A stretch of 64,000 bases of DNA from positions 186,001 through 250,000 of the forward strand of contig JAIYCW010000017.1 in NCBI GenBank assembly GCA_027487815.1, read 5' to 3'. Positions 43,152-58,652 of the stretch are shown here, one piece after another. How positions within the stretch are numbered: the stretch's first letter is position 1; every line of letters starts with the position of its first letter. The notes below the pieces were generated by a model, which saw nothing but the letters and a program-made list of their open reading frames with translations, had not been told where the DNA came from and ran no database searches. Made by a program: the position numbers and the translations under genes. The DNA is from Burkholderiales bacterium. Its GTDB lineage: Bacteria > Pseudomonadota > Gammaproteobacteria > Burkholderiales > Burkholderiaceae_E.

Positions 43152-43167
43152 CCGAATCAGGATTCGG
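43152..43167. other. Short inverted repeat between convergent stops
   Basis: CCGAATC AG GATTCGG is a perfect 7-bp inverted repeat spanning the end of ccmH and the stop of the Bug-receptor gene. No T-run follows on either strand, so it is at best a weak bidirectional terminator or RNA-stability hairpin. Confidence 0.3.
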
Positions 43168-44170: not shown

Positions 44171-44237
44171 GCAGGTCTCCTTTTATTGATTACAAAATAT
44201 AACTACTTTTCACCCGACTGCGCAAGTGGTGCCCCCT

Positions 44238-44302
44238 TAGAGCCCTCGGCCTTCCCTTTAAAGCCCTCGGCCTTCTCCTTTAATGCCCTCAGTCTTACCC
44301 TT
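44238..44302. repeat. Three tandem copies of a 21-22 bp repeat
   Basis: Units at 44238-44258, 44259-44280 and 44281-44302 share the pattern TA(A/G)(A/T)GCCCTC(G/A)G(C/T)CTT(C/A)...CCTT. The first two differ by about two changes, the third is more diverged. The period is not a multiple of three and the frame shifts between units, so it is not coding. It lies between the MetE-like gene and the Bug gene, in the transcribed spacer if they form an operon. Confidence 0.8.
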
Positions 44303-44318
44303 CACAACTCACAGACGC

Positions 44319-45440
44319 CTAGCCCCACACTTCATTGGCGGTATCAATCACCAAACGCAACTTATCGCGCTGCGCCTGCACCGCAATGTTGTTGCCATGA
44401 AAGGTGCTTGAGAAACCACACTGAGGCGAAAGCGCCAGTTGCTCAAGAGGTGCGTACCGGGCCGCCTCTTCGATCCGCCGCTTGAGATCATCCTTGGATT
44501 CAAGCTGATCCAGCTTGGTGGTGACTAACCCGAGCACCACGGTCTTGCCCTTGGGAAGATGGCGCAGCGGCTTGAAATCGCCAGAGCGGGCATCGTCATA
44601 CTCCAGGAAATATGCGTCCACATTCATCTCGGTAAGCAAGGCCTGGGCCACTGGCTCATAGCTGCCCTGCGCCGCCCAGGTGCTCTTGAAGTTACCCCGG
44701 CATAAGTGCACAGCGAGCGTCATCCCGGCGGGTTTGTGCGCGACCACCTTATTGATAAAAGCGGCATAGCGGTAGGGCAATTCATCGGGATCATCGCCCC
44801 GCGACTTGGCAGCCGCCCGCATCCCGTCATCGCACAAATAAGCCAGATTGGTGTCATCCATTTGCACATAGGTGCATCCGGCCGCAGCCAGGCTTTGAAG
44901 CTCAGCCCCATAGGCGCGCGCCACATCGTCGTAAAACGAGGGGTCAAGCTCGGGGTAGTGAGTCTTGCTGATCCCTGCGCGGCCACCGCGAAAATGCAGC
45001 ATGGTGGGTGAGGGAATCGTGACTTTGGCGCGTACGCCTTGCCCTGGCTGGATACAGCTTTGCAGATACTCGAAATCAGCACGCTGAATATCTTTCACAT
45101 GGGTCACCTTGTCCACCACCCGCATGACCGGGGGCGCGAGTTCTTCGCTGCCATCGGGTTTGCGGATCGTGACCGGAATATCGGTTTTCACCCCACCAAG
45201 CTGCTCAAGAAAATCGATATGAAAATAAGCGCGCCGAAACTCCCCGTCAGTAATGCTCTTCAGACCAACGTCTTGCTGAAAGGCCACTATTTCCGCAATC
45301 GCTTGATCCTCAATCACACGAAGCTGCTGCGCCGTGATTTTTCCAGCGGCTTTATCTGCGCGCGCTTCGAGCAAAACTTTTGGCCGAAGAAAGCTGCCGA
45401 CATGATCAAAGCGGGCAGGAAGCTGGGAGGGGGTAGACAT
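44319..45440 (-). CDS. MetE-core (cobalamin-independent methionine synthase C-terminal-like) methyltransferase
   Basis: 373 aa, only the catalytic half of MetE, as in YxjG/YxjH-type proteins. Begins DHVGSFLRPKVLLEA; zinc ligands are visible as His/Cys in VHLCRGNF, Glu in FLEYDDARSGDF and Cys in SPQCGFSSTF. It lacks the N-terminal MetE domain that helps bind folate polyglutamate, so the methyl donor may differ from methyl-folate. First gene of a two-gene string with the Bug receptor; divergent from a GntR regulator across a palindromic operator. A substrate-demethylating or salvage role is inference. Confidence 0.9.
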   Translation of the reverse strand: MSTPSQLPARFDHVGSFLRPKVLLEARADKAAGKITAQQLRVIEDQAIAEIVAFQQDVGLKSITDGEFRRAYFHIDFLEQLGGVKTDIPVTIRKPDGSEELAPPVMRVVDKVTHVKDIQRADFEYLQSCIQPGQGVRAKVTIPSPTMLHFRGGRAGISKTHYPELDPSFYDDVARAYGAELQSLAAAGCTYVQMDDTNLAYLCDDGMRAAAKSRGDDPDELPYRYAAFINKVVAHKPAGMTLAVHLCRGNFKSTWAAQGSYEPVAQALLTEMNVDAYFLEYDDARSGDFKPLRHLPKGKTVVLGLVTTKLDQLESKDDLKRRIEEAARYAPLEQLALSPQCGFSSTFHGNNIAVQAQRDKLRLVIDTANEVWG

Positions 45441-45473
45441 CAGCGAACTCCATAAATAAAAAAATTCTCGCCT

Positions 45474-45485
45474 ATTGTATACAAT
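45474..45485. promoter_or_regulatory. Perfect palindrome, likely GntR/FCD operator
   Basis: ATTGTATACAAT is a perfect 12-bp palindrome in the 55-base gap between the divergent MetE-like gene and the GntR gene. GntR/FCD regulators typically bind sites of this TTGTATACAA kind. It lies 10 bases before the gntR ATG, so it would control gntR itself and, across the gap, the MetE-like/Bug genes. Confidence 0.75.
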
Positions 45486-45495
45486 CGAACCTCAT

Positions 45496-46245
45496 ATGCG
45501 ATCCACCCTTTCATTTCAGGATGCCTCAGCCAACCAGACCCTGCGGGCACTACTCGGACTACGGGAATTGGTGCTTGCCGGAGAACTTGCGCCGGGCGAG
45601 CGAATCGCAGAGCTCAGCATGGTGGAGCAGCTCGGCGTGTCTCGCACCCCGGTACGTGCGGCGCTGCAAAGGCTCCATGAAGAGGGCTTGCTCGAGGCGC
45701 TGCCCACTGGCGGATATGCTGTACGCAGCTTTTCTGCATCCCAGGTGCGCGACGCCATTGAGATTCGCGGCACGCTGGAAGGTCTGGCTGCGCGCATGGC
45801 AGCAGAACGGGGCGTGAGCCAGACGCAACTCGACCTAGCGCAAACCATCCTCAATCAAATTGATGGCATCGTGGCCATGCAACGATTGAATGAAAAGCGC
45901 TTTGCTCATTACATAGCGCTAAACGCTCAGTTCCACAGTCTGCTGCTCGAGATGGCCAACAGCGAGCCCCTTACCCGTGAGCTGACACGCGTAGTGCAGA
46001 TGCCTTTTGCAGGGCCCAACGCGTTTGTTCAGGTGCAGGGGCACGGCCCGGAGGCCCTGGGCGTATTGATCATCGCGCAGGCCCAGCACCGTGCAGTGAT
46101 CGAAGCCATCGCCCAACGCGAATCCACCCGCGCGGAAGCCTTGATGCGTGAGCATGCCCGAATCGCGCACCGCAACCTTGGCACCGCCCTGCAGCAACAT
46201 CGGCAATTACGCCAAGTGCCTGGTGGCACGCTGATCCAGGCCTGA
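45496..46245 (+). CDS. GntR family regulator with FCD ligand domain
   Basis: 249 aa from the ATG at 45496; a TTG at 45475 would lie inside the palindrome. The N-terminal winged helix (RIAELSMVEQLGVSRTPVRA, then GLLEALPTGGYAVR) precedes an all-helical FCD domain with metal/ligand histidines in NAQFHSLL, AQHRAVIEA and REHARIAHRNL. FCD members sense carboxylic acids or sugar acids and mostly repress adjacent uptake and breakdown genes. Divergent from the MetE-like gene and followed after 55 bases by a TRAP receptor. Confidence 0.93.
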   Translation: MRSTLSFQDASANQTLRALLGLRELVLAGELAPGERIAELSMVEQLGVSRTPVRAALQRLHEEGLLEALPTGGYAVRSFSASQVRDAIEIRGTLEGLAARMAAERGVSQTQLDLAQTILNQIDGIVAMQRLNEKRFAHYIALNAQFHSLLLEMANSEPLTRELTRVVQMPFAGPNAFVQVQGHGPEALGVLIIAQAQHRAVIEAIAQRESTRAEALMREHARIAHRNLGTALQQHRQLRQVPGGTLIQA

Positions 46246-46287
46246 GCGCTGCTTTACCCGTGCTCGACTACAACTCAAACCCCAACC

Positions 46288-46292
46288 AGGAG
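46288..46292 (+). promoter_or_regulatory. Ribosome-binding site of the TRAP receptor gene
   Basis: AGGAG lies 8 bases before the ATG at 46301, one of the strongest ribosome sites in the window, in keeping with high expression of a periplasmic receptor. Confidence 0.6.
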
Positions 46293-46300
46293 ACACTCCG

Positions 46301-47395
46301 ATGAGCCTACGCTTCAACCCTTTACCCAACGTTGCTCGTCCGAGCGCAATATTGGCTGGCTGTGCCCTCGCGCTTGGCGCCTGGCTGCCCGTGCCTGTGG
46401 CCCATGCCCAGCCCGCCGGACAGCCAGTCACTTTGAGAATTGCTCACCCCCTGCCCCCGGTGGCCACAGCGCATGCACGCTTTCTCGGCCCGTGGACGCA
46501 AAAGGTCGAAGCGGATTGCGCAGGGAAAGTGCGTTTCCAGATTTTTCCGGCCATGCAATTGGGCGGCACACCACCGCAATTGTTTGATCAAGCCCGCGAT
46601 GGTGTAGCCGATATGGTGTGGACGGTGCTTGGCTATACACCGGGGCGATTTGTTGCCGCCGAGGCCTTTGAGTTGCCTTTCATGACCAAGACTGCAGAAG
46701 GCTCAAGCCGCGCATTCTGGGAATATGCCGTGGCCAATAATCTGATGAGTACCGGTGAACTCAAGGATATCAAGCCGCTGGCCTTGCATGTGCATGATGA
46801 GGGCCTGATTCACACCTCATCCAAGCAAATCCGCACGCTGGCCGATTTCAAAGGCATGAAGCTGCGTGGCCCGACCCGCCAAACCACCAAGATGCTGCAA
46901 GCTTTGGGCGCCACCCCGGTTGGCATGCCAGTGACCCAGGTCGCTGAATCATTGAGCAAAGGGGTGATCGATGGCGCCGTGGTGCCGTGGGAGATCGTGC
47001 CCGCAACCAAGGTGCACGAACTCACCAAGTTCCACACTGAAACCGACCCCAAGGCGCGTGCATTGTATACAGCCACCTTTGTTTTTGCGATGAACAAGGC
47101 TAGCTATGATCGCTTGCCCAACGAGGTCAAAGCCTGTATTGATCGCAATAGTGGTGCCGAGTTATCTGCAGCGGTGGGCAAGATCTGGGATGAATCCTCC
47201 AGTGGCGCGCGCAAGCTCGCAGCAGACCGTGGCAACACGTTTTACACAGTGCCCGCCTCGGAATTGTCGAACTGGGAGAAGGCCTCAGCCGGCGTGGCTG
47301 AAGACTGGGTGAAGGAAGCTGGCGCAAAAGGCCTCGATGGCAACGCCTTGCTGCGCAGTGCGAAAAGTCTGATTGAGCGCTTTGATCAGCGCTGA
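46301..47395 (+). CDS. TRAP transporter solute receptor DctP, orphan
   Basis: 364 aa with a signal peptide (about residues 1-36, cut near AHA-QPAGQ). The DctP fold is clear: LRIAHPLPPVATAHARFLGP, the QLGGTPPQLFDQARDG loop, and KGMKLRGPTRQTTKMLQAL, where the conserved Arg contacts a carboxylate ligand. No dctQ or dctM follows; the TRAP membrane genes of this window (61.5-63.2 kb) have their own receptor. It may use shared membrane partners. Likely regulated by the upstream GntR protein. Confidence 0.93.
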   Translation: MSLRFNPLPNVARPSAILAGCALALGAWLPVPVAHAQPAGQPVTLRIAHPLPPVATAHARFLGPWTQKVEADCAGKVRFQIFPAMQLGGTPPQLFDQARDGVADMVWTVLGYTPGRFVAAEAFELPFMTKTAEGSSRAFWEYAVANNLMSTGELKDIKPLALHVHDEGLIHTSSKQIRTLADFKGMKLRGPTRQTTKMLQALGATPVGMPVTQVAESLSKGVIDGAVVPWEIVPATKVHELTKFHTETDPKARALYTATFVFAMNKASYDRLPNEVKACIDRNSGAELSAAVGKIWDESSSGARKLAADRGNTFYTVPASELSNWEKASAGVAEDWVKEAGAKGLDGNALLRSAKSLIERFDQR

Positions 47396-47424: not shown

Positions 47425-48336
47425 CTAGACGACGGCCTTAAACCGCTCCACGCAAGTGTGCAATACCTCTTGCATGGGGCGCTTCCACCAGTTGTTTTGC
47501 GAAAAAATCTCCACCTCCACGATGCCTTGGTACCCCGCCGCCTCAACGCTGGCTCTTAGCGCTTGAAGCTCAATCACGCCATCGCCCATCATGCCGCGAT
47601 CGAGCAATAAGTCGGTGGTGGGCACGAGCCAATCGCACACATGAAAAGCCTTGATCCGAGCCGCCCCGGCTCTTGCGATTTGCTGATGCACCTTCGGATC
47701 CCACCACACATGGTAGGCATCCACCGCGACGCCTAACCATTGCCCGGAAGGATCGAGCAACTCACATACATCAAGGGCTTGCTCAAGGGTGTTGATGCAG
47801 GCGCGATCAGCGGCATACATCGGGTGCAAGGGCTCAATCGCCAAAGGCATCCCGACTGAGGATGCATAGCCAAGCAAGTCCTGGATACCTTCGATGACTT
47901 GAAGGCGCGCTGCAGCAATATCGCGATGCGCGGGCTTAGCCTCCAGAGCGCCGGGCAAGCCACCCACAACCAACACCAGGCAGGGCGCGCCCATCTCACA
48001 AGCCTCGTCCACTGCACGGCGATTATCATCTCGCGCCGCCTCCAGCCCTGCAGCATCGGCCGCAGTAAACATACCTCCACGGCAATATCCGGATAACTGC
48101 AATCCCAATGATGCGACCAAGGCTGAAGCTCGCTTCAGGCCAATGTCTTTCACCTGATCGCGCCAGGGCGAAACCGCAGAAATGCCTTGCTCCGCACAAG
48201 CATTGAAAATATCTTCCAGGTTTCCTTGGGCTCTGACTGTAGCGGTGTTGATCGAGAGCAGCTGCGGCTGGCTGGCCAGATCGCGCAAACCCGAGGATCG
48301 AGCCTTGGGGGCCGAAGATTCGATGGGGTCAGCCAC
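47425..48336 (-). CDS. Sugar phosphate isomerase/epimerase-like TIM barrel protein
   Basis: AP-endonuclease-2-fold barrel of 303 aa, started at the GTG at 48336, which shares a base with the upstream stop (TAGTG). Metal-site residues are recognisable in LAIEPLHPMY (Glu), VAVDAYHVWWDP (Asp/His), AFHVCDW and VEVEIFS (Glu). Members include xylose isomerase-like, IolE and ketose 3-epimerase enzymes; the exact reaction is unknown. Last gene of the eight-gene operon. Confidence 0.88.
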   Translation of the reverse strand: MADPIESSAPKARSSGLRDLASQPQLLSINTATVRAQGNLEDIFNACAEQGISAVSPWRDQVKDIGLKRASALVASLGLQLSGYCRGGMFTAADAAGLEAARDDNRRAVDEACEMGAPCLVLVVGGLPGALEAKPAHRDIAAARLQVIEGIQDLLGYASSVGMPLAIEPLHPMYAADRACINTLEQALDVCELLDPSGQWLGVAVDAYHVWWDPKVHQQIARAGAARIKAFHVCDWLVPTTDLLLDRGMMGDGVIELQALRASVEAAGYQGIVEVEIFSQNNWWKRPMQEVLHTCVERFKAVV

Positions 48337-49550
48337 TACTCGACACCATGGCAAGCCAATACATGCTGCATCCGGCGCACTGCCGCTTGCGGATCATCCA
48401 GCAGATGAGCCTGGTCGGCCAGAACAAAAAGCTGCGCCAGATGCACGATGCTGCGCGCGCTGTGTTGCCCGTTGATCATGATGGTGTGCGATTGATGGCC
48501 GTTCAAATATGCAAGAAACACCACACCAGTTTTATAGAACCGGGTGGGCGCACAAAAGATGTGGCGCGATAGCGCAACTGTAGGCTCCAGGATCTTCTGA
48601 AAGCCAGCAACATCGCCTCTCCCAAAAGCGCTGAAGGCAGCACTTGCTGCAGGCGCAATCGCATCAAAGACTCCGAGCAGTGCATCGCTGTAACCCTGAC
48701 TGCCGGGGCCATGGCCGTCGCCAGCGATCAGCGCGGCATAGTTGAAATCATCGCCGGTATACATGCGAACTTTTGCAGGCAACTGGCGCCGCATCTGGAT
48801 CTCGCGATCCATATCAAGCAAGGAAATCTTGACGCCATCAACCTTCAACTCATGCGCATGAATAATCGCAAGAAGCGTGGCCATTGCCTTATCAATCGCT
48901 GCATCGCCCCAATACCCCGCCAGCGCAGGATCGAACATATCGCCCAGCCAGTGCAGGATCACCGGTTCGCGAGCTTGGGTAAGCAAGCGGTCATACACCC
49001 GCCAATAATCCTCCGGCCCCCGCGCCACTTTGGCCAGGGCTCGTGAAGCCATGAGTATTAATCGCCCGCCGGTCGCCTCGATCGCCTCCATCTGCTCGAG
49101 GTAGGCCGCAAGCACCTCGTCCACGGTGCTCACCTTTTCAAGATTCAGGTGATCGGTCCCGCAGCCGCTGGCCACCAATGCAAAGCGCCCTTCCCGCTCG
49201 CGCGCCTTGGCTGCACGAGCGGTGCGTTGGATCAACTCAAGCGATGTTGGCCAATCCAATCCCATTCCACGCTGAGCTGTATCCATGGCTTCTGCCACAC
49301 CCAAGCCCAGATCCCATAGGCGCTCGCGATAAGCCAGGGTTTGGTCCCAATCGACTGCACATTGCAGCCAGGGGTCGATGGCGGCCTGAGCATCTGCGAC
49401 CACATGAGCAGCTGAATAGACCACGCGATTCCAGGCGCTGCGCGGATCAACTGGCGCTGCTTGGGCAAACAGCGCCTGACCACGCAACGAATAGCTTTGG
49501 ACCCGTACACCCTCGGGACCAACCAAGGGCAATGGGAGGCTCAAACTCAT
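48336..49550 (-). CDS. DUF993 family protein (dihydrodipicolinate-synthase-like barrel)
   Basis: 404 aa, soluble. I recognise the DUF993 family, annotated as dihydrodipicolinate synthase-like; no member function is known to me. It contains a probable barrel with VASGCGTDHLN, ILHWLGDMFDPAL and a lysine-bearing HELKVDGVKISLLD segment where aldolase-type family members carry a Schiff-base lysine. Position between a Gfo/Idh/MocA dehydrogenase and a sugar isomerase-like gene suggests a retro-aldol or related step on a sugar derivative; this is inference. Confidence 0.8.
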   Translation of the reverse strand: MSLSLPLPLVGPEGVRVQSYSLRGQALFAQAAPVDPRSAWNRVVYSAAHVVADAQAAIDPWLQCAVDWDQTLAYRERLWDLGLGVAEAMDTAQRGMGLDWPTSLELIQRTARAAKAREREGRFALVASGCGTDHLNLEKVSTVDEVLAAYLEQMEAIEATGGRLILMASRALAKVARGPEDYWRVYDRLLTQAREPVILHWLGDMFDPALAGYWGDAAIDKAMATLLAIIHAHELKVDGVKISLLDMDREIQMRRQLPAKVRMYTGDDFNYAALIAGDGHGPGSQGYSDALLGVFDAIAPAASAAFSAFGRGDVAGFQKILEPTVALSRHIFCAPTRFYKTGVVFLAYLNGHQSHTIMINGQHSARSIVHLAQLFVLADQAHLLDDPQAAVRRMQHVLACHGVE

Positions 49551-49566
49551 GTCAATGCACCTTTAA

Positions 49567-50718
49567 TCAAATAGGCAAGGCGGGCACATCAACCCAGCGA
49601 CGTTCGCGCCAGCTTTGCATGGCCAACTCCACAAGCTGTACGCCTTTGGCACCTTCTTCCAGCGTCCATGAATACGGCGCATCTTCAGCCACATGGCGAA
49701 TGAAGGCTTCCCACTGAGTCTTGAACCCATTGTCAAAAGCGGTGTAATCAGGCACGGCCTGCCAATGATCAAAAAAATTAAGGGGCTGCTTCACATCCGG
49801 ATTCCATACGGGCTTGGGTGTATTGACCCGCGCCTGTGAACGCACATCCCACAATCCTGCAACCGCCGATCCATGCGTGCCATCCACATGGAAAGTCACC
49901 AGATCATCACGCCGCACCCGTGTGCACCAAGAGCTATTGATTTGAGCAATCACCCCGCCTTCAAGCTCAAAGGTGGCGTAGCAAGCATCATCAGCGGTGG
50001 CCTCATAAGCGCGGCCCTGCTCATCAAACCTCTCAGGAATATGGGTGGCTCCGAGGCAAGACACTGACTTCACTGCACCAAAGCAGTTATCCAGCACATA
50101 GCGCCAGTGGCAAATCATGTCGAGGATAATGCCGCCACCATCCTCGGCCCGATAGTTCCACGAAGGCCTTTGAATCGGCTGCAAATCACCTTCAAACACC
50201 CAGTAGCCAAACTCACCGCGCACCGACATCATCCGGCCAAAGAAGCCCGACTTGCGCAGCATCTGCAGTTTCTGCAAACCCGGCAAAAACAACTTGTCCT
50301 GCACCACGCCATGCTTGATGCCTGCACTGCGGGCCAACTCAACCAACTCCAGAGCTTGCGCGAGGTTAGTCGCTACCGGCTTTTCGCAATAAATATGCTT
50401 GCCTGAGGCAATCGCTTGTGCGAGCAGCTCGGGACGCATTTGCGTGGTCGCCGCATCAAAGAACACCTGATCATTGCGATTCGCCAGTGCAGCCTGCAGA
50501 TCGGTGCCCCAGCGTTCGATGCCATGCGCTTGCGCAAGCGCCTGCATCCTCTCCGCGCCGCGCCCAATCAGAATCGGATCGGGCATGACCCGATCACCAT
50601 TAGCAAGCGCTACCCCACCTTGTTTGCGGATCGCCACAATCGAGCGCACCAGATGCTGATTCAGGCCCATGCGCCCGGTGACTCCGTGCATGATGATGCC
50701 CAGACGTTGTGTTGCCAT
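49567..50718 (-). CDS. Gfo/Idh/MocA family NAD(P)-dependent oxidoreductase
   Basis: 383 aa. The N-terminal Rossmann fold starts GIIMHGVTGRMGLNQ and the catalytic-lysine motif is IYCEKPVATN. The C-terminal beta-sheet domain has GGGIILDMICHWRY, where the conserved His of many sugar dehydrogenases sits. Acts on a polyol, sugar or sugar acid in most relatives. Follows the enolase-type gene by 2 bases and precedes the DUF993 gene by 16. Confidence 0.92.
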   Translation of the reverse strand: MATQRLGIIMHGVTGRMGLNQHLVRSIVAIRKQGGVALANGDRVMPDPILIGRGAERMQALAQAHGIERWGTDLQAALANRNDQVFFDAATTQMRPELLAQAIASGKHIYCEKPVATNLAQALELVELARSAGIKHGVVQDKLFLPGLQKLQMLRKSGFFGRMMSVRGEFGYWVFEGDLQPIQRPSWNYRAEDGGGIILDMICHWRYVLDNCFGAVKSVSCLGATHIPERFDEQGRAYEATADDACYATFELEGGVIAQINSSWCTRVRRDDLVTFHVDGTHGSAVAGLWDVRSQARVNTPKPVWNPDVKQPLNFFDHWQAVPDYTAFDNGFKTQWEAFIRHVAEDAPYSWTLEEGAKGVQLVELAMQSWRERRWVDVPALPI

Positions 50719-50720
50719 GC

Positions 50721-52133
50721 TTAGTTCCTTGTAATAGAAAATGACGCATCATCTGCCTGAAGCATTGGCCTGACATGCCCAGCAAATCCGACCCCGGCCA
50801 GTGAATCAAAATGCAATTGGCCGTGCTTAATGTTTAGCTCCACCCGGTCACCGTTCATGGTGTACAAATCCGGATACTCGCGGCAAAAGGCCATCCGCTC
50901 CTCGCGTGGCGCTATTGACATTCCATCGCCGTAAAAATGACCGTTACGCTCGACATGCTCAAGCCCTATGAAACTTGCCAAAGCCAGGTCCTGTTGCAGC
51001 GCAATCCCGGGCTGCATGGTGAGATCCTCGCCTGAAATAAACAAGGCTGTACCATCGCTTGACAGGACATCGCAGCGCATCCGGTTGATGAGAGCCTTGT
51101 AAAGGCCTTTGCAGCTTTTGCTTGATACTGCTCGATATCCACAGGCGATGGCTTGAGGAAACCTTGCCAGACTGTCATCCGATTCATCAATCATGATTGG
51201 CCAGGGCATATTGGGGAGCGGGCCTTCTAGCGCAACATCACGATGCAACGGCTGCTCCACGTACATCAATGCCCTCTTAATACTTCGCAGATCGGGGCGG
51301 TTCGAGATTGCGACTAAAAGTTCCTGGCAAGTATCGGCACTCTGGAATTGTTCGTTACCGTCGAGCGTGCACTGCCAACCCGGCGCAGCCTTATCAAGCA
51401 CAGAGGAAATCTCAAGCAAGCGCTCAATATCCGCCGGGACATCGCCTTGAAGTTTTAGCTTGAAAAAATGATGCTGCCACTGGGTGGTGGCTTGCTCAAG
51501 AGTCAGAGGTAAACCATCAGCGCTTTCAGCCTGATCTGGGCTCGACAATACGTCGGCCAAACCAACAGTATGGCGCGCATGAATGCTGGCACGCGGCTGG
51601 CGGGCGGCCAGCCAAGCGCCCACATCCATGCCTTGCAAGTCTGCAGGCAAGCCAGGTGTGTTTATCCCCATCAGGTTAAGCTGCAAAAGCTTGCTCCAAT
51701 CGACATCACAAAGCTGCGCCAAACCATCAAGCACCGCCCTTTGCAGGATCGCAGGGCCAAAGTGGGTAACGAGACCAGGCTCCTCCAAACCTGCGGCCAA
51801 AACACACTCGCTTTCGACAGCCAGATGAAGGTCCCAGGCACTACGCGGCAACGGTTGACCAAGCCCGGCGTTCGCAGCACGCTGAACCGAGGTGCGAAGT
51901 TGATCGATGTTTTGCTCGGCAGTCAATTGCGGCCGCTTATCAAACCATTTCGGAATCATCATCTCTGCGGCATACCCCATCACGCTTCGTCCGCGTTGAT
52001 CAGTCACTCGCGCTGCGATGAACAGCTGGGGCGCCTGGGTCAGAGTAATCACACCAAACCGAAACGGCAGGCGCAATTGCACCAACCTTTCCCAGCACAG
52101 GACTTCCTCAATTCTCAAGGGCAAGGCTTGCAT
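50721..52133 (-). CDS. Enolase-superfamily enzyme (mandelate racemase/muconate lactonizing-like)
   Basis: 470 aa. No close family name comes to mind, but the barrel residues of the enolase superfamily are visible: K225-x-K227 (FKLKLQ), metal ligands D258 (LDGNEQF), E293 (YVEQPL) and D316 (MIDESDD), and a lysine on the opposite face (K339 or K342, SSKSCKG). The capping region (residues 1-130) and overall length exceed the common 350-400 aa. Such enzymes remove a proton next to a carboxylate, giving dehydration, racemisation or cycloisomerisation. Start overlaps the ABC ATPase stop (TGATG). Confidence 0.78.
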   Translation of the reverse strand: MQALPLRIEEVLCWERLVQLRLPFRFGVITLTQAPQLFIAARVTDQRGRSVMGYAAEMMIPKWFDKRPQLTAEQNIDQLRTSVQRAANAGLGQPLPRSAWDLHLAVESECVLAAGLEEPGLVTHFGPAILQRAVLDGLAQLCDVDWSKLLQLNLMGINTPGLPADLQGMDVGAWLAARQPRASIHARHTVGLADVLSSPDQAESADGLPLTLEQATTQWQHHFFKLKLQGDVPADIERLLEISSVLDKAAPGWQCTLDGNEQFQSADTCQELLVAISNRPDLRSIKRALMYVEQPLHRDVALEGPLPNMPWPIMIDESDDSLARFPQAIACGYRAVSSKSCKGLYKALINRMRCDVLSSDGTALFISGEDLTMQPGIALQQDLALASFIGLEHVERNGHFYGDGMSIAPREERMAFCREYPDLYTMNGDRVELNIKHGQLHFDSLAGVGFAGHVRPMLQADDASFSITRN

Positions 52134-52951
52134 CAGTGATCCAGGCTGCCTTGCGAAAAAAAGTGCGCGCGAATCTGGCGCGAGTACTCGCCAAATGCTG
52201 CACTCGCCATCACCTCGAGCGTACGCGGGCGAGGCAAATCGATCCGGTACTCGGCCGCAATGCGGCCCGGGCGCTCACTCATCACCAACACCCTATCGGA
52301 AAGAAATATGGCTTCCGGAATGCTATGGGTGATCAGCAGTACCGTCTTGCGTGCTTCAAGCCAGATACGCTGCAATTCGAGATTCATCTTTTCACGGGTC
52401 ATTGCATCCAGCGCTCCGAAGGGCTCATCCATCAGCAGCAATGGCGGGTCATGAAGCAAAGCCCGACAAATCGCGGCGCGTTGCTGCATGCCACCGGACA
52501 GTTGCCAGGGATACTTGCGCTCAAAGCCCGCCAGGCCCGCCATCTTCATCAGTTCGGCGGTACGCTTACGCGCCGGCTCCATCGGCAAATCACGCATCTG
52601 TGCTTGTAGAAGGATATTGTCCTGCACATTTCGCCAGGCCAGCAGCACGGCACTTTGAAACACAATGCCTACTTGGGTCTGTGGTCCTTTGACCGCTTGC
52701 TCGCGAATCGTAATTTGTCCACCCGACACAGGCAGCAACCCGGCTATGAGTTTTAACAGCGTGGATTTGCCACAACCGGAAGGGCCCACAATCGACACAA
52801 ACTCGCCTTGGGCAATCTCAAAGCTCAGCGGTTTGAGCGATTCCACAGGGCCATCCTTGGTGGAATAGATCTTCGTAACCGCATCACATCGAATCAGGGG
52901 TAAGCGTGTGGCGGTGTCACCCACCACACGAAGTTGCGCTGGCGAATTCAT
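52133..52951 (-). CDS. ABC importer ATPase (NitT/TauT/SsuB type)
   Basis: 272 aa. Walker A GPSGCGKSTLLKLIAG, signature QLSGGMQQRAAICRAL, Walker B LLLMDEPFGALD, switch His in ITHSIPEA. The MTREKMNLEL helix after Walker B is typical of nitrate/sulfonate/taurine importers. Begins directly after the receptor gene stop (TAA-ATG) and is coupled to the enolase-type gene downstream. Confidence 0.95.
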   Translation of the reverse strand: MNSPAQLRVVGDTATRLPLIRCDAVTKIYSTKDGPVESLKPLSFEIAQGEFVSIVGPSGCGKSTLLKLIAGLLPVSGGQITIREQAVKGPQTQVGIVFQSAVLLAWRNVQDNILLQAQMRDLPMEPARKRTAELMKMAGLAGFERKYPWQLSGGMQQRAAICRALLHDPPLLLMDEPFGALDAMTREKMNLELQRIWLEARKTVLLITHSIPEAIFLSDRVLVMSERPGRIAAEYRIDLPRPRTLEVMASAAFGEYSRQIRAHFFSQGSLDH

Positions 52952-53965
52952 TTACTGAGGCAAAAACTCATTGGTGTAGTAGTCCTCAGCCTTACCCGAG
53001 TTTTTCTCCAGGCCGCCAAACTCCTGCAGCATGCTGAAAGACTCCGCCATGTTGCGCGCCGAAACGCGGAAGGGCTTGCCACCCTTGGTATCGTCTGCGG
53101 TGTATAGCGGAGTGGTCATGCGCAAGCCTGCAATCAAGGTATCGCGCTGGCCTGCTTTTGCATTCGCCTTAAGCATGGCATCTACCGCAGCTTCCGGGGA
53201 TCGCACGGACTCTTCAAAAGCACGCGACGAAGCGCGCATAAAGCGTCGAATGAGATCAGGCTTGTCCTTGATCATGTCACGATGGGCAATCACCCCCGAG
53301 CTCACCAGGTTCACCCCGTAATCTGCAAACCGGATCGCATTGGTGGGCTTTTTGGTGGCATCGGTGATCCGCATGGTTTGATCCATTACATAGCCCAGCA
53401 AAAGATCAGCCTGCCCATTGATCACCGCATTGAGTTTGGTTTGGCCGTCACCGGAAACAACTTTGTAATCGCTCTCCACCAGGCCGGTCTTTTTCAGGAA
53501 CAGGGGCCAAATCTGCGACATCGAATCGCCCGGTGTCATGGCGACGGTTTTACCCTTGATATCGGCAGGCAGGCGAATATTCTTTTCGCTCAAGCCAATC
53601 ACTGACATCGGCGAGGTTTGCAAGGCCACGCCCACCGAGCGCACTGGAGCGCCCTTGGCCGCAATCTTGATCATCGTGGGCACATCAGCGTAACCAAACT
53701 GCACGGTGCGGGCGGCTACCGCCTGAACTGTGGGCCCGGAGCCGCGCCCTTCCTGAATCTCAAGATCGATACCTTCGGCATCAAAAAATCCACGCTCCTT
53801 ACCCAGAAAAAACGGTGCATGTTCGCTATACAGATACCAGTTGAGCATCAGCACCACTTTTTCCTTGGGCTGAGCCATCACCGGCAAGGCACTACTCAGT
53901 ATCACGGCGGCAGCCACCCCTCGAAGGGTATTGCGCTTAGAGAGCTTCGGGACCAGGTTCATCAT
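52952..53965 (-). CDS. ABC importer substrate-binding protein (NMT1/THI5-like, NitT/TauT type)
   Basis: 337 aa with a signal peptide (about residues 1-31, cut near VMAQPKEK). The mature fold starts VVLMLNWYLYSEHAPFFLGK, the typical opening of NMT1-like receptors, followed by GIDLEIQEGRGSGPTVQA. The paired ATG codons at 53965/53962 are both possible; the second has better spacing to AGGAGA. Binds the unknown substrate of the operon; relatives bind thiamin precursors, sulfonates, nitrate or aromatic acids. Confidence 0.93.
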   Translation of the reverse strand: MMNLVPKLSKRNTLRGVAAAVILSSALPVMAQPKEKVVLMLNWYLYSEHAPFFLGKERGFFDAEGIDLEIQEGRGSGPTVQAVAARTVQFGYADVPTMIKIAAKGAPVRSVGVALQTSPMSVIGLSEKNIRLPADIKGKTVAMTPGDSMSQIWPLFLKKTGLVESDYKVVSGDGQTKLNAVINGQADLLLGYVMDQTMRITDATKKPTNAIRFADYGVNLVSSGVIAHRDMIKDKPDLIRRFMRASSRAFEESVRSPEAAVDAMLKANAKAGQRDTLIAGLRMTTPLYTADDTKGGKPFRVSARNMAESFSMLQEFGGLEKNSGKAEDYYTNEFLPQ

Positions 53966-53989
53966 GTCTCCTTCGTCGTTATGAAATAT

Positions 53990-54778
53990 TCAAGCTGAGG
54001 GCAACACATCGGCACGCTGGGAAGCATGCCAGGGAATCATCATCCGTTCGACCACATCAATGGCGATAAACAGCACCACGCCGATCAATGACAACACCAC
54101 CAAACCGGCGAACATCAGCGGCAAATCAAAATTGCCATTGGCCTTTTGCAACAGATAGCCGATACCGGAGTTCGAGCCGACAAACTCGCCCACAACGGCA
54201 CCAACGACGGCCAGCGTGATGCACACCTTCAAGCCAGAAAAAATCGACGGCAATGCCTGGGGCAGGCTAATGCGCCAAAACATCTTCCAACGAGAAGCGC
54301 CCATGGATCGGGCCAGATCAATCATGTCGGGCTCCACCGATTTGAAGCCCATCACTGTGGACACCACAACCGGGAAAAAACCGAGGAGGAAAGCAGAAAT
54401 AATCTTGGGCACGATGCCAAAGCCGAACCACACCACAAACAATGGTGCAATGGCGATCTTGGGAATGCTTTGTGAAAACACCAGCAACGGATAAACAAAA
54501 CTCTCCACCACCCGCGACCACGCAATCAGCATCGCAACAGGAATACCAAAAAGAATAGACAGTGCAAAGCCACCGAGGGTTGCCCAGGTGGTCACCATGC
54601 ACTCGCGCAGCAAGGTGGGCCACTCCTTGATGATCTGTTCCACCACCGCAAGCGGCGTAGGGACCAGGTATTGCGGAATCTTGAAGAGGCGTATGGCGAG
54701 ATCCCACAAGATCAACAGCAACACAACCATGATGATCGGCCGCATCCATTGCGCTGCAAACAAGCGTTTCAGGCTCAT
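53990..54778 (-). CDS. ABC importer permease (NitT/TauT type)
   Basis: 262 aa, about six membrane segments. The coupling-helix EAA motif is present (DLARSMGASRWKMFWRISLPQALPSI split over the loop, with the conserved Gly). Lies 24 bases before the receptor gene and 9 bases after the oxygenase gene on the same strand; with the ATPase it makes a complete importer. Confidence 0.94.
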   Translation of the reverse strand: MSLKRLFAAQWMRPIIMVVLLLILWDLAIRLFKIPQYLVPTPLAVVEQIIKEWPTLLRECMVTTWATLGGFALSILFGIPVAMLIAWSRVVESFVYPLLVFSQSIPKIAIAPLFVVWFGFGIVPKIISAFLLGFFPVVVSTVMGFKSVEPDMIDLARSMGASRWKMFWRISLPQALPSIFSGLKVCITLAVVGAVVGEFVGSNSGIGYLLQKANGNFDLPLMFAGLVVLSLIGVVLFIAIDVVERMMIPWHASQRADVLPSA

Positions 54779-54787
54779 ATCAGACCC

Positions 54788-55546
54788 TCAGGAGACACGC
54801 CGCTTCAGGCTATGATCATAGGGCAGCGCGGGCTGGGCAAACACCGTATCACGGCGAACATAGTGCAAGGCCACTGCGCGACGCCAATGCCTGGAATGGT
54901 TGGCCCCGGATTGGTGGAAAGTGTTGCCGTGATGAAATGACACACCACCTCGCGGCACCGGCGCTGGCTGCATCGGCTGACGGGCCAAAATCTGCTCGGG
55001 TAACTGGAGATTAAAGGGCTCATCATCCGGCGCGAAGTGTTCATATACCGGACCAAGATTGGTACCGTCGCCGAAATACAGGCAGCCATTGTGCAAAGTG
55101 GCGTCATCAAGCGCAACCCAGGCTGTCACCACACCATCGAGATCATCAGGGCCAAAATAAAAATTGTCCTGATGAGCCGGCTTGGGCCCGCCGCCTTCGG
55201 GTGGCTTGAAAAACACCTGACTGAAGTACAGATCCACCGGACCCTGAACAAAGGCTTCCGCGATACGCACCAATCGGTGATCACATGCCAAATCAAACAC
55301 GGCATCGCGATGCGCATGAGGATTATCGAGCTTGCGCAACACCGTGCGCGCACTGACACCGCCATCAACATACCAGGCACGTTCTTCGGGCGCGAGATCG
55401 GTCAGGAACTGCTCACCCCACTGCTCAATGTCATGGACCACATGTTGCATTTGTTCGGCCCGGAATACTCCAGGCACAGTCAGATGACCCTGCAGCGAAT
55501 AAAGGGTTTGGTGCATGGCATTGATCAATCCGGCCTCCTGATTCAT
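54788..55546 (-). CDS. Phytanoyl-CoA dioxygenase family Fe(II)/2-oxoglutarate oxygenase
   Basis: 252 aa. Iron ligands: the HxD pair in AHQDNFYFG and a distal His in GNTFHQSGANHS, with a nearby Arg (HWRRAVALHY) for 2-oxoglutarate. The family hydroxylates or oxidatively demethylates small carboxylates, phosphonates and quaternary amines. First gene of the eight-gene minus-strand operon, just ahead of the ABC importer; its promoter region contains one copy of the 24-bp repeat (55580-55603). Confidence 0.9.
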   Translation of the reverse strand: MNQEAGLINAMHQTLYSLQGHLTVPGVFRAEQMQHVVHDIEQWGEQFLTDLAPEERAWYVDGGVSARTVLRKLDNPHAHRDAVFDLACDHRLVRIAEAFVQGPVDLYFSQVFFKPPEGGGPKPAHQDNFYFGPDDLDGVVTAWVALDDATLHNGCLYFGDGTNLGPVYEHFAPDDEPFNLQLPEQILARQPMQPAPVPRGGVSFHHGNTFHQSGANHSRHWRRAVALHYVRRDTVFAQPALPYDHSLKRRVS

Positions 55547-55579
55547 ACGGATTCAAAACACACGGACTTCACATCCGTT

Positions 55580-55603
55580 TTGTAACTATTTGGTGAAAAG
55601 ATG
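55580..55603 (+). repeat. 24-bp direct repeat, copy 1
   Basis: TTGTAACTATTTGGTGAAAAGATG, identical at 21 of 24 positions to the copy at 55706-55729. It lies about 34 bases upstream of the oxygenase start, where a regulator could control the eight-gene operon. Its last three bases are the start codon of a 10-codon leader frame. Confidence 0.85.
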
Positions 55604-55633
55604 CGCCTGTCGTCCTTGGATGTCAAGCGTTAA
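55601..55633 (+). CDS. Possible 10-codon leader ORF
   Basis: ATG at 55601 with GGTGA five bases upstream, encoding MRLSSLDVKR and then TAA. Its initiation region is the same 24-bp sequence that initiates the MetE-like gene. It may be a by-product of the repeat being an operator. The promoter proposed for the MetE-like gene lies downstream of it, so it would need its own transcript. Confidence 0.2.
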   Translation: MRLSSLDVKR

Positions 55634-55671
55634 TTCATGCTGCACCGCGCAATACGAGGAAAACTTACCCA

Positions 55672-55701
55672 TTGACGAAGGAGAATTGATAGGAGCACAA
55701 T
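55672..55701 (+). promoter_or_regulatory. Candidate sigma-70 promoter of the second MetE-like gene
   Basis: TTGACG (5 of 6) at 55672-55677 and CACAAT (4 of 6) at 55696-55701, 18 bases apart. The predicted start, near 55708, falls inside repeat copy 2, so a protein bound there would block initiation. Confidence 0.45.
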
Positions 55702-55705
55702 TTAC

Positions 55706-55729
55706 TTGTAACGTTTTGGTGAAAACATG
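55706..55729 (+). repeat. 24-bp direct repeat, copy 2, over the start codon
   Basis: TTGTAACGTTTTGGTGAAAACATG; its final ATG is the start codon of the MetE-like gene and its GGTG the only ribosome-site candidate. It contains an inverted repeat GTTTT-GGTG-AAAAC (55713-55726). Likely operator; the adjacent TetR protein (56728-57429) is the first candidate to bind it. Confidence 0.8.
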
Positions 55730-56731
55730 GCCCATATTCAGACTACAGTTGTTGGTTCCTATCCGATCCCAGACTGGCTGGTATCCGCCCCCAGCGAACA
55801 AGCCTTGATTGACGCCACGCGGGTGGTGATGAGCACCCAGGAACAAGCGGGTATTGATCTTGTTTGCGACGGCGAGCTTTATCGCTTCGATATCAATCAT
55901 CCTGAAACCAATGGAATGATTGAGTACTTCGTGCGCCCACTTGATGGGGTACGCACGCGTATTGGCTTTGAAGAAATGATCGCCTACACCCGAAATGCGG
56001 GAATGAGGTTTCGCGCCAAGCCTCCCGGCGTCGTTGAATCAGCACTGGGCAGTGGCACCCTTGATTTACCGGGGGCTTGTGCACGTGCGCTCAAGCTTAC
56101 CTCGCGGCCCCTGAAATTCACCGTGACCGGGCCGCATATGCTGGCCAAAACACTGATCGATCATCACTATGGCTCCATAGAAATGCTCACCCAGGGCATT
56201 GCTGATGTGTTGGCGGCCCAGGTCAGTCATTGCAATGCGCAAGTGATCCAGGTGGATGAAGCCAATCTGCCGGGCCATCCCGAAGAGTGGCGTTGGGCCC
56301 TGAGAGCCATGAATACCGTGCTGGATACGATTCCTGGCAAGTCGGCAGTTCACTTATGCTTTGGAAACTATGGCGGCCAAAGTGTGCAAAAAGGTGCCTG
56401 GGATGCCCTGATGGAATATCTCAACGGCCTGCATGCTGACCATATCGTGATGGAGGTAGCGCACCGACCTCCTTCGGAGCTGGCAGTGTTCAAGGAGTTG
56501 CAGCCACATATTGGGTTTGGTATGGGCGTTGTGGATATCAAGCGCACCGATGTGGAAACGGCCGAACAGATTGCCAAAGCCATTGAGCAGGCCGAAAAGT
56601 TGTTGGGAACCGGTCGTGTGTCCTACATCCATCCCGACTGCGGATTCTGGATGCTCAAGCGCTCAATTGCTGATGCGAAAATTCGCGCGCTGGTAGCCGG
56701 GCGGGATCTCTTTGAACGCGCAGGTGCCTAG
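55727..56731 (+). CDS. Second MetE-core methyltransferase
   Basis: 334 aa catalytic MetE-like domain alone (opens TTVVGSYPIPDWLVSA). Zinc ligands: His/Cys in VHLCFGNYGG, Glu in IVMEVAHRP, Cys in IHPDCGFWML. It is a distant paralogue of the protein at 44319-45440. Divergent from the oxygenase/ABC operon and convergent with the TetR gene (stops overlap by 2 bases). A role in moving a methyl group from the operon's substrate is inference; a methionine synthase using another donor is the alternative. Confidence 0.9.
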   Translation: MAHIQTTVVGSYPIPDWLVSAPSEQALIDATRVVMSTQEQAGIDLVCDGELYRFDINHPETNGMIEYFVRPLDGVRTRIGFEEMIAYTRNAGMRFRAKPPGVVESALGSGTLDLPGACARALKLTSRPLKFTVTGPHMLAKTLIDHHYGSIEMLTQGIADVLAAQVSHCNAQVIQVDEANLPGHPEEWRWALRAMNTVLDTIPGKSAVHLCFGNYGGQSVQKGAWDALMEYLNGLHADHIVMEVAHRPPSELAVFKELQPHIGFGMGVVDIKRTDVETAEQIAKAIEQAEKLLGTGRVSYIHPDCGFWMLKRSIADAKIRALVAGRDLFERAGA

Positions 56732-57429
56732 CGCACCAAATACCCAAGCACCAGATCATTCATATGCGACAAGCGCTCAAGCTGCGCTTTGGGGGCCAGC
56801 AGGTTGCGTCCAAAGATGGCACTCAGGGTATGGCAGTTACCGATATAAAAATACGATAAAGATGCTATCGAAATATAAAGCTGCACCGGATCGACGCCAG
56901 GCCTGAATACCCCGTCGCGACGACCCCGCTCCAGCACAGCATCGATCATGCTCACAAACGGCGAGTGCATTGTTTTGACCCGGCTGGATTGACTGAGGTG
57001 CACCGCCCGGTGCAGGTTTTCAGTGTTAAGCAGGCTGAGAAATTCCGGATGCTGCAGGTAGTAATTCCAGGTGAATGCGATCAGGCGGCGAATAGCTTCC
57101 ACCGGGTCTACTTCATCCAGTTTCAGGCCGCGTTCCTGTTGGCGAATCGCTTCATAGGCATGCTCAAGAACCGCTGTAAACAACTCGTCTTTGCTTCCGA
57201 AATAATAGTAGAGCATGCGCTTGTTGATGCCTGCGCGTTCGGCGATCAAATCGACGGTGGCGCCATTTAAGCCATGCTCGGCAAACTCGGCTCCTGCAGC
57301 TAGCAAGATCGCTTTGCGGGTGGCCACCGGATCACGCGTTGTTGGCAGGCGGGTGGCCGCTTTTTTTACTGCGGGCTTGGCCAGCGGCTTGTCCTTGGCC
57401 AAAGGCTTTTCTGTTCGGCGTTGAGTCAT
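56728..57429 (-). CDS. TetR/AcrR family regulator
   Basis: 233 aa. A basic, Lys/Ala-rich N-terminal extension (about residues 1-30) precedes the TetR helix-turn-helix (GAEFAEHGLNGATVDLIAER, then AGINKRMLYYYFGSKDELF). The ligand domain follows, with a TetR_C-type pattern (AIRRLIAFTWNYYLQHPEFL) as in RutR-like proteins. By position it could govern the divergent MetE-like/oxygenase promoter, or the MFS and gpx genes upstream on its own strand. Confidence 0.92.
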   Translation of the reverse strand: MTQRRTEKPLAKDKPLAKPAVKKAATRLPTTRDPVATRKAILLAAGAEFAEHGLNGATVDLIAERAGINKRMLYYYFGSKDELFTAVLEHAYEAIRQQERGLKLDEVDPVEAIRRLIAFTWNYYLQHPEFLSLLNTENLHRAVHLSQSSRVKTMHSPFVSMIDAVLERGRRDGVFRPGVDPVQLYISIASLSYFYIGNCHTLSAIFGRNLLAPKAQLERLSHMNDLVLGYLVR

Positions 57430-57470: not shown

Positions 57471-58652
57471 TTAAGGGGCAGCATGAAGCGCACGCCCCAT
57501 GAGCCAAGCCGCCAGGATCACGCCGCAGGAAAATAGTGAAGTCGCGATCCAGGTGTTGCCCCAGCCCAGCGATTGAGCCGCGACCACAGCAATGATCGGA
57601 GGCCCGAGTCCTTGCCCCAATGCACTGCCCTGCTGCATCAGGCCGACGGTGGTGGATACTGCAGCCGGCGATGCTGCAAGCCGCGCGCTCATGATGAAGA
57701 GCGTGCCGGGGATCAGGCCACCCACTGAAGAAAACACCAGCAATGCACCATAGCGCCAGGCAAGACCCACCTCGACCGGTGCACCGAAAGTAACCCAGGC
57801 ACAAGCGCTCATTAGCAGAGCCGTCAGCATGAGCACCCGTGAAGGGGAAATCCAGCGATTGACCCATCCGGCGGCACCATTACCTACTGCGTTAATCAAT
57901 GCTGCAAGCGCGGTGAGCGCGCCAGCAATGGCCGGTGAAATCCCCGACTGCTCATAGATCAATGGCAAGAAGGTAAACACCGACATCCATTGCGCGGCAT
58001 AACATCCAAAGGCTAATGCGAGCGTCCACGGACCCAGGCGTCGGACAGTCATGAGCACCAGTTCAAGCCATGCTGCGGGTTGCCCGTGTTGCGTGGGCTG
58101 AGGGTCGCGAGGCAAGGTCCTCATCATGATCAATGGCACAAGTGCCATGGCACTGGCCACCCACCACGCGAGCCGCCAACCACCCTGTTCGATAAGCAAA
58201 GGTCCGATCAAAAGCATCAGGCCCATGCCGAGCGGCATATACATGCCCCAGGCACCAAGCCATCGGATGAGTTTGTCGGGAGTCACCAAGCGCCTAAGCA
58301 ACATCGGGCCCGGGAGCACAGCCAGCAAAAAGCCTGCACTTTCCAGAGCACGCAAGGCCAGCACGGCAAGCGCGCTGTAGGCAAACGTCGAGAGCGTACT
58401 GGCGAGCACGATGATCGCGAGCCCAAGACTCATCACCCGGCGCGCGCCAAAACGATCAGCCAGCATTCCGCCGACAATGCCCACCGATACCCCGGCCGCC
58501 TGAAACATCGTGACGAACAGACTGGCCTGAACAATCGACAGGCCAAACTCAAGCTTCAGTGCTGCGAGAGCGGGCGGCAGCTTGCCGACCTGCATTCCTG
58601 CGGCAATACCAGCCAATAGGACCAGCCCCGCAGCAAGACGTGGCGAGGTCAA
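57471..58652 (-). CDS. MFS transporter
   Basis: 393 aa, about 12 membrane segments. The first cytoplasmic loop carries the MFS motif A (GGMLADRFGARRVM). Resembles cyanate/CynX-type or sugar/acid MFS carriers, substrate unknown. TTG start at 58652, 8 bases after the gpx stop; no ATG lies before residue 20. TetR gene follows after 41 bases, so gpx-MFS-tetR may be one transcript. Confidence 0.9.
   Translation of the reverse strand: MTSPRLAAGLVLLAGIAAGMQVGKLPPALAALKLEFGLSIVQASLFVTMFQAAGVSVGIVGGMLADRFGARRVMSLGLAIIVLASTLSTFAYSALAVLALRALESAGFLLAVLPGPMLLRRLVTPDKLIRWLGAWGMYMPLGMGLMLLIGPLLIEQGGWRLAWWVASAMALVPLIMMRTLPRDPQPTQHGQPAAWLELVLMTVRRLGPWTLALAFGCYAAQWMSVFTFLPLIYEQSGISPAIAGALTALAALINAVGNGAAGWVNRWISPSRVLMLTALLMSACAWVTFGAPVEVGLAWRYGALLVFSSVGGLIPGTLFIMSARLAASPAAVSTTVGLMQQGSALGQGLGPPIIAVVAAQSLGWGNTWIATSLFSCGVILAAWLMGRALHAAP

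Follow-up and report, generated by a model that had tools for sequence, protein, structure and literature searches.

A conserved DUF993-containing gene set with an operator-like palindrome, a candidate TetR-controlled catabolic regulon of proteobacteria

Do eight tightly packed genes of a Burkholderiales bacterium, together with a gene diverging from them, form a single catabolic system, and if so, how might it be controlled and what might it degrade? The genes lie on contig JAIYCW010000017.1 (assembly GCA_027487815.1) in a 64-kb stretch of DNA, here called the window, whose positions are counted from its first base. An earlier note on this DNA had proposed an undescribed pathway of import, hydroxylation or demethylation, proton abstraction, oxidation, carbon-carbon cleavage, and isomerisation, with a MetE-like enzyme passing on a methyl group. 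We confirmed all nine open reading frames (ORFs) at the coordinates given there: eight minus-strand genes in the order Fe/2OG oxygenase (PHYH), permease, receptor, ATPase, enolase-superfamily enzyme (ENO), Gfo/Idh/MocA dehydrogenase (GFO), DUF993 (a domain of unknown function), and TIM-barrel isomerase (ISO), with a MetE-core gene (METE) diverging from the first. The gene set is conserved, apparently under joint control, and probably catabolic; it is assembled from known superfamilies and undescribed within the literature searched. That it is induced by a sugar-acid-like substrate, under a TetR-family repressor binding GTAACC-N4-GGTTAC-like sites, is a proposal for which we consider the balance to be even. 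The features are as follows.

47425-48354, minus strand: ISO, xylose-isomerase-like TIM barrel (PF01261, 124 bits; 355 bits to 3ju2 (SMc04130) and 3qc0)
48336-49550, minus strand: DUF993, predicted barrel of the dihydrodipicolinate synthase (DHDPS) type, candidate class I C-C lyase (PF06187, 580 bits; 501 bits to 4dnh; Z 28.8 to DHDPS)
49567-50718, minus strand: GFO, Gfo/Idh/MocA dehydrogenase (by Pfam; 647 bits to 3oqb)
50721-52133, minus strand: ENO, divergent enolase-superfamily enzyme (by predicted fold; invariant K225, K227, D258, E293, D316, K339)
52133-52951, minus strand: ABC transporter ATPase (PF00005, 112 bits)
52952-53965, minus strand: NMT1-type solute receptor (PF09084, 161 bits)
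53990-54778, minus strand: ABC transporter permease (PF00528, 126 bits)
54788-55546, minus strand: PHYH-family Fe/2OG oxygenase, not a conserved member (PF05721, 107 bits; orthologue in 1 of 399 genomes; 65% identical gene in locus L138)
55580-55599, no strand: operator-like site before the PHYH operon (23.7 bits, matrix built without the window)
55672-55701, plus strand: weak promoter-like site before METE (3 sites of this kind in the region, 6.1 in shuffles)
55706-55725, no strand: operator-like site before METE (17.1 bits)
55727-56731, plus strand: METE, MetE-core enzyme (PF01717, 73 bits; seven functional residues kept)
56728-57429, minus strand: TetR-family regulator, candidate repressor (PF00440, 58.9 bits against a cut-off of 24; TetR_C_29, 153.6 against 26.2)

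From PHYH to ISO, the intergenic spacing is 9, 24, 0, an overlap of 1, 2, 16, and a final overlap, with a maximum of 24 bases. The ISO ORF is listed from a TTG at 48354, and the likelier start is the GTG at 48336, which overlaps the DUF993 stop codon (TAGTG). The families assigned in the earlier note were upheld by Pfam matches above cut-off (PhyH, BPD_transp_1, NMT1, ABC_tran, GFO_IDH_MocA, DUF993, AP_endonuc_2, and Meth_synt_2) for every gene except ENO, whose best match, MR_MLE_C, reached 20.4 bits, under the cut-off of 29.4, and whose assignment is supported by its predicted structure instead. The TetR gene, absent from the list in that note, is part of the same unit, and its end overlaps the end of METE by 4 bases. 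An MFS transporter gene (57471-58652) is located 41 bases upstream of TetR on the same strand and may be cotranscribed with it.

Conservation of the gene set

Among 399 genomes of the order, DUF993 was present in 28 and ENO (E <= 1e-30) in 15, 14 of which also held DUF993. A METE orthologue (E <= 1e-80) was found in 10 genomes, nine with DUF993 and the tenth with ENO, and wherever METE and DUF993 were both present they lay on one contig (9/9). The hypergeometric probabilities of co-occurrence with DUF993, calculated with kinship ignored, were 2e-17 for ENO and 1e-10 for METE. Searching species genomes with an ENO alignment returned at least 571 relatives among at least 592 matched stretches. 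We retained 80 loci, from Variovorax, Ramlibacter, Halomonas, Rhizobium, Azospirillum, and metagenome-assembled genomes labelled as other phyla, and counted 77, excluding two duplicates and L095, in which no ENO gene was called. In these loci, chosen through ENO alone, the genes found within nine genes of ENO were GFO (42), DUF993 (38), a second isomerase, ISO2 (36), ISO (35), TetR (33), and METE (9), and GFO, DUF993, and ISO occurred jointly in 32. A larger set of 88 unique ENO loci, from which seven duplicates had been taken out, pools loci selected through DUF993, plasmid hits, and ENO; a TetR gene was within nine genes in 41 of them. The genes of relatives were predicted by a codon-usage caller, which matched the annotation of L057 except for some starts.

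Neighborhood, co-occurrence, and the shared operator-like site described below show that the grouping exceeds chance. The earlier note had tied its idea of one pathway to homologues occurring together elsewhere; because they co-occur widely, far beyond this genome, the conserved unit holds. Its expectation that DUF993, enolase-superfamily, and PhyH genes would be neighbors was borne out for the first two and failed for the third, since a PHYH orthologue (E <= 1e-40) was found in 1 of the 399 genomes and PHYH in 2 of the 88 loci. These counts mark the oxygenase as an addition of local scope outside the core; we rejected PhyH as a conserved step, and its role as a general first reaction is not supported.

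These counts bear on the possibility of an oxidative demethylation, in which PHYH would begin by hydroxylating an N-methyl group or methyl ether, the remaining enzymes would degrade the demethylated acid, and METE would dispose of the methyl group. PHYH is indeed the first gene of its operon; in this genome as in L138 it diverges from METE, and sites lie in between. A TauD-type oxygenase occurs in 4 of the 88 loci. However, METE is present in 10 genomes against one for PHYH and so is independent of it; moreover, the hydroxylation would yield formaldehyde, which METE has no known way of using. We regard this route as unlikely. A search of the open-access literature for an operon for 4-O-methyl-glucuronic acid catabolism or demethylation found no paper.

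A shared operator-like palindrome

The 180-base gap between METE and PHYH holds a 20-base direct repeat (55580-55599 and 55706-55725), absent from the list in the earlier note, with one copy ahead of each divergent transcript. In other genomes, the element takes the form of a palindrome, GTAACC-N4-GGTTAC, before cluster genes, and its core AACC-N4-GGTT with at most one mismatch is denser in intergenic DNA (0.59 per kb) than in coding DNA (0.20 per kb). Scored with a matrix built without the locus under test and without the window, METE was preceded by a site of 10 bits or more in 11 of 14 unique loci, as were only 27 of 673 control genes (Fisher p = 1e-12), several of these 27 adjoining clusters and possibly being true targets. 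Genes apart from METE had themselves served to train the matrix, so their corresponding counts are partly circular. The two known sites were the only ones of at least 12 bits in the window.

Allowing up to three mismatches, a scan of the own genome gave three matches, i.e., one beyond the window pair. The third lies 21 bases before a gene for a TctC receptor, whose ten best relatives found are 71 to 77% identical; all ten are located within these clusters or next to DUF993 or GFO, and six come from named Variovorax loci. This gene is unlinked to the window unit, and a BenE-family transporter gene follows it after 17 bases (contig C26; L154, 7884-10128).

Of eight further records or genomes, four contain the exact palindrome GTAACY-N4-RGTTAC, each a single time and always before a DUF993 operon, 18 to 52 bases from the annotated start: before GFO-DUF993-ENO-ISO in a Sinorhizobium meliloti record, before acyl-CoA dehydrogenase-SDR-DUF993 on S. 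meliloti pSymA, before GFO-DUF993-ISO in Pseudoroseomonas, and before acyl-CoA dehydrogenase-SDR-DUF993-ISO in Roseateles. Operons combining DUF993 with acyl-CoA dehydrogenase and SDR genes were seen at L144, L062, and L146, with CoA-transferase, enoyl-CoA hydratase, ETF, or glycerate kinase genes nearby; two of the three carry the exact palindrome.

The first of these S. meliloti operons, which appears to correspond to SMc04130-SMc04133 (structure entries 3ju2 and 4dnh), shares with the window the core of GFO, DUF993, enolase-like, and ISO genes as well as the palindrome, and its TetR is related to that of the window (58% over 180 residues). It differs in having a divergent CUT1 sugar transporter and further Gfo genes, and matches to METE and PHYH were absent from the 19 kb examined; in the sources found, it likewise has no function assigned to it. 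In the open-access literature, we found no paper on DUF993, none under presumed gene numbers of pSymA, a table entry only for SMc04129-SMc04133, and nothing relevant under the structure codes of the solved relatives; the open-access excerpts retrieved named no substrate for SMc04134-SMc04139 and contained no paper naming this pathway.

From the co-location of its gene with the sites, we infer that TetR is the binder of the palindromes. Four bases separate the METE site from a preceding promoter-like TTGACG-18-CACAAT, an arrangement that a repressor would need, but sites of this kind are no commoner here than in shuffles, which leaves it a weak candidate.

Predicted enzymes and substrate class

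The predicted DUF993 model (pLDDT 83.5) matches the solved relative 4dnh with Z 50.6 and DHDPS with Z 28.8 and a root mean square deviation (rmsd) of 2.4 over 290 residues (TM-score 0.60 by query length), which indicates a DHDPS-type aldolase fold. Lys241 and His200 are invariant in 26 sequences. Lys241 stands in a motif resembling the Schiff-base one and, by that motif, is the candidate Schiff-base residue. The active site of DHDPS contains a tyrosine, and in DUF993 it is His200 that aligns with it. PF06187 was the sole Pfam match to DUF993 at E up to 0.001, with none to PF00701. The carbon-carbon cleavage suggested in the earlier note is thus plausible from the predicted DHDPS-like fold, while the residue-level pairing of lysines, taken up below, did not follow. 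GFO lay within two genes of DUF993 in 46 of 65 unique DUF993 loci, an SDR gene in 6, and neither in 13; we read these neighbors as the dehydrogenase that would supply a ketone for DUF993.

For ENO, the predicted model (pLDDT 90.6) supports a two-domain enolase-superfamily fold, with Z 30.4 and rmsd 2.7 over 353 residues to 3q45, a dipeptide epimerase, and Z of about 29 to muconate-lactonizing structures. The muconate-lactonizing-type pattern consists of a KxK motif, an opposing lysine, and three acidic metal ligands. K225, K227, K339, D258, E293, and D316, whose roles were assigned by motif, are invariant in 29 sequences, so that ENO is predicted to retain an active site of this type. GFO is closest to 3oqb (647 bits), an oxidoreductase without a named function, and matches anhydrofructose, inositol, and levoglucosan enzymes far more weakly.

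On these grounds, we infer the following course. Repression by TetR would be lifted by the substrate, and its targets would be the operon running from PHYH to ISO, the divergent METE transcript, and the distant TctC receptor gene. ENO would remove the proton next to a carboxylate in a dehydration, beta-elimination, or cycloisomerisation, GFO would oxidise to a ketone, DUF993 would form a Schiff base with the ketone and cut a carbon-carbon bond, and ISO would isomerise an intermediate or product. In some relatives, C3 acid products would probably reach glycerate through tartronate-semialdehyde-reductase-like and glycerate-kinase-like enzymes. METE would be a co-regulated side branch, probably methylating homocysteine from a pathway-linked donor. 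As substrate, a small polyol bearing a carboxylate is the most likely, such as a sugar acid, glycoside acid, or cyclitol-like acid, although the results do not yet bear out the methylated sugar acid or cyclitol named in the earlier note.

The transporters vary between loci, being of the NMT1-type ABC, TTT, or CUT1 sugar ABC kind, with an ABC permease near 26 and a TTT gene near 30 of the 88 loci; such an exchangeable transporter fits an acidic carbohydrate-like substrate without naming one. The window receptor, permease, and ATPase score highest against SsuA, Sao, and Tau models, as would be expected if the transporter imported a compound from which the enzymes freed sulfur or nitrogen. These scores all fall below the curated cut-offs (SsuA, 68.6 against 163.5; Tau ATPase, 225.7 against 357; TauC, 103.2 against 342), and neither the TTT transporters of other loci nor the window unit, in which no C-S or C-N cleaving enzyme was recognised, agrees with scavenging of sulfonates, sulfur, or nitrogen, to which we give very little credence.

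Other genes found in the 88 loci are a tartronate-semialdehyde-reductase-like gene (7), a thiamine pyrophosphate (TPP) enzyme (10), SDR (12), and a second enolase-like gene (4), and DHDPS-family and GNAT genes also occur among the extras. A glycerate-kinase-like gene stands beside TetR, sharing a site with it, in L030 and L031. A glycerophosphodiester-phosphodiesterase-like gene lies inside or next to the clusters L046, L077, and L116. We rejected glyoxylate carboligase as the identity of the TPP enzyme: its top model is PRK08199 (794 bits), and none for glyoxylate carboligase was among the best 25 of 53 matches. For the second isomerase of relatives, the best that the own genome offered was a weak match of 22 bits.

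Several of these genes could instead point to an alicyclic or aromatic-derived carboxylic acid, degraded through CoA-dependent steps together with an enzyme of the muconate-lactonizing type and a Gfo dehydrogenase of the dihydrodiol type. The second enolase-like gene is a sub-cut-off relative of muconate cycloisomerases, a dihydrodiol dehydrogenase is among the weak matches of GFO, the BenE-family gene follows the distal site-bearing TctC gene, and the palindrome-bearing operons of pSymA and Roseateles contain genes for acyl-CoA dehydrogenase, SDR, and ETF and have CoA-transferase, enoyl-CoA hydratase, and glycerate kinase genes in their vicinity. On the other hand, a CUT1 sugar transporter and additional Gfo genes lie beside the S. 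meliloti core, sugar epimerases are the nearest relatives of the second isomerase, and GFO is nearer to the anhydrofructose, inositol, and levoglucosan enzymes, which makes such a substrate rather improbable.

The known pathways that most resemble this one are of two kinds. The glucarate route is a non-phosphorylative sugar-acid pathway. Another, according to the accessible part of PMC11778176, uses the D-xylonate dehydratase YagF with the DHDPS-family YagE. The window unit shares with them a dehydratase-type enzyme and a DHDPS-fold enzyme, and the tartronate-semialdehyde-reductase-like and glycerate-kinase-like genes of relatives recall them too, whereas DUF993 lacks a PF00701 match and has His for the DHDPS Tyr, and the window unit further has a PF01261 isomerase and a Gfo step that looks obligate. 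In the levoglucosan pathway (LgdA-LgdB-LgdC), as described in the accessible part of PMC10066097, the ketone from a Gfo/Idh/MocA dehydrogenase is the substrate of a PF01261 enzyme, and the same pair of families is seen in the window; that part mentions no enolase-like or DUF993 enzyme, and GFO reached 58.2 bits against the levoglucosan dehydrogenase equivalog cut-off of 650.

Several observations weigh against a TetR-controlled sugar-acid regulon. The co-occurrence probabilities disregard kinship among genomes; 20 of the 77 ENO-selected loci have no GFO, DUF993, ISO, or ISO2 nearby, some being cut by contig ends; and Rhizobium loci that carry GH39 but lack DUF993 make up 12 of the 88 loci and 11 of the 77. 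METE is near just 12 of the 88 loci and hence lies outside the core, and 3 of its 14 loci (L048, L112, and L131) lack a site. A reversed control pattern gave two matches in the same scan of the own genome. Of the eight additional records or genomes, one had a match to this control pattern, and four had no exact palindrome. Lastly, hhalign does not pair Lys241 of DUF993 with the DapA lysine. As to the Rhizobium loci (L059, L071, and ten others), their ENO stands beside GH39, TIM-barrel, and 2-hydroxyacid dehydrogenase genes and an oligopeptide-type ABC transporter.

These results give DUF993 a reaction class predicted from its fold and place it in a core of four genes with a candidate regulator and an operator-like site. 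The computed regulon extends to many proteobacteria, among them the laboratory strain S. meliloti, which opens a catabolic pathway with no assigned role to direct tests.

METE and the methyl group

The seven zinc and homocysteine positions of MetE listed in the accessible part of PMC7857596 are kept in METE. The zinc ligands H641, C643, E665, and C726 (E. coli MetE numbering) are the same in all 17 METE rows, and the homocysteine residues S433, E484, and D599 show no substitution, although the first of these positions is missing from two short gene calls. METE nonetheless falls below the cut-offs of all ten NCBIfam methionine-synthase models listed, the best being PRK04326 (149 bits against 406). 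We rejected METE as the housekeeping methionine synthase: the own genome holds MetH, and no full-length MetE above cut-off was found in it.

The retained residues would also be expected of an ordinary methionine synthase adjoining the operon by chance, which is highly unlikely given that METE accompanies DUF993 or ENO in 10 of 10 genomes, shares the DUF993 contig in 9 of 9, carries the site in 11 of 14 loci, and coexists here with MetH. Co-occurrence, linkage, and the shared site thus place METE with the operon, as the earlier note had it, and the most economical reading of its residues and context is a specialised, co-regulated homocysteine methyltransferase. In L036, L078, L122, and L138, METE overlaps the next gene, an SDR gene, by 4 bases, and a GNAT gene follows.

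The core methionine synthases MesA-MesD, as far as the accessible parts of PMC7857596 and PMC7005905 describe them, likewise have the catalytic MetE domain only, with its zinc and homocysteine residues, and the best solved relative of METE, 3rpd, is MesD according to the former. METE is unlike them in lying below every NCBIfam methionine-synthase cut-off and in being tied to a catabolic regulon. It is possible, albeit doubtful, that METE represents a further family of folate-independent methionine synthases whose donor is a substrate or intermediate of the pathway and, jointly, that DUF993 represents a new family of class I C-C lyases acting on a dehydrogenase-made ketone. If so, the breakdown of a methylated natural compound would pass its methyl group directly into methionine, and a pathway-derived donor would bear on the methyl source of the core methionine synthases, a question raised in the accessible part of PMC7857596.

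A second MetE-core gene (44319-45440), with the same seven residues kept, lies in the neighboring group at 43157-47395, which also holds a TctC receptor, a GntR regulator, and a DctP receptor. Close relatives of this group were found in 37 of 389 genomes of the order, including 13 of the 15 ENO genomes, a count in which kinship is ignored.

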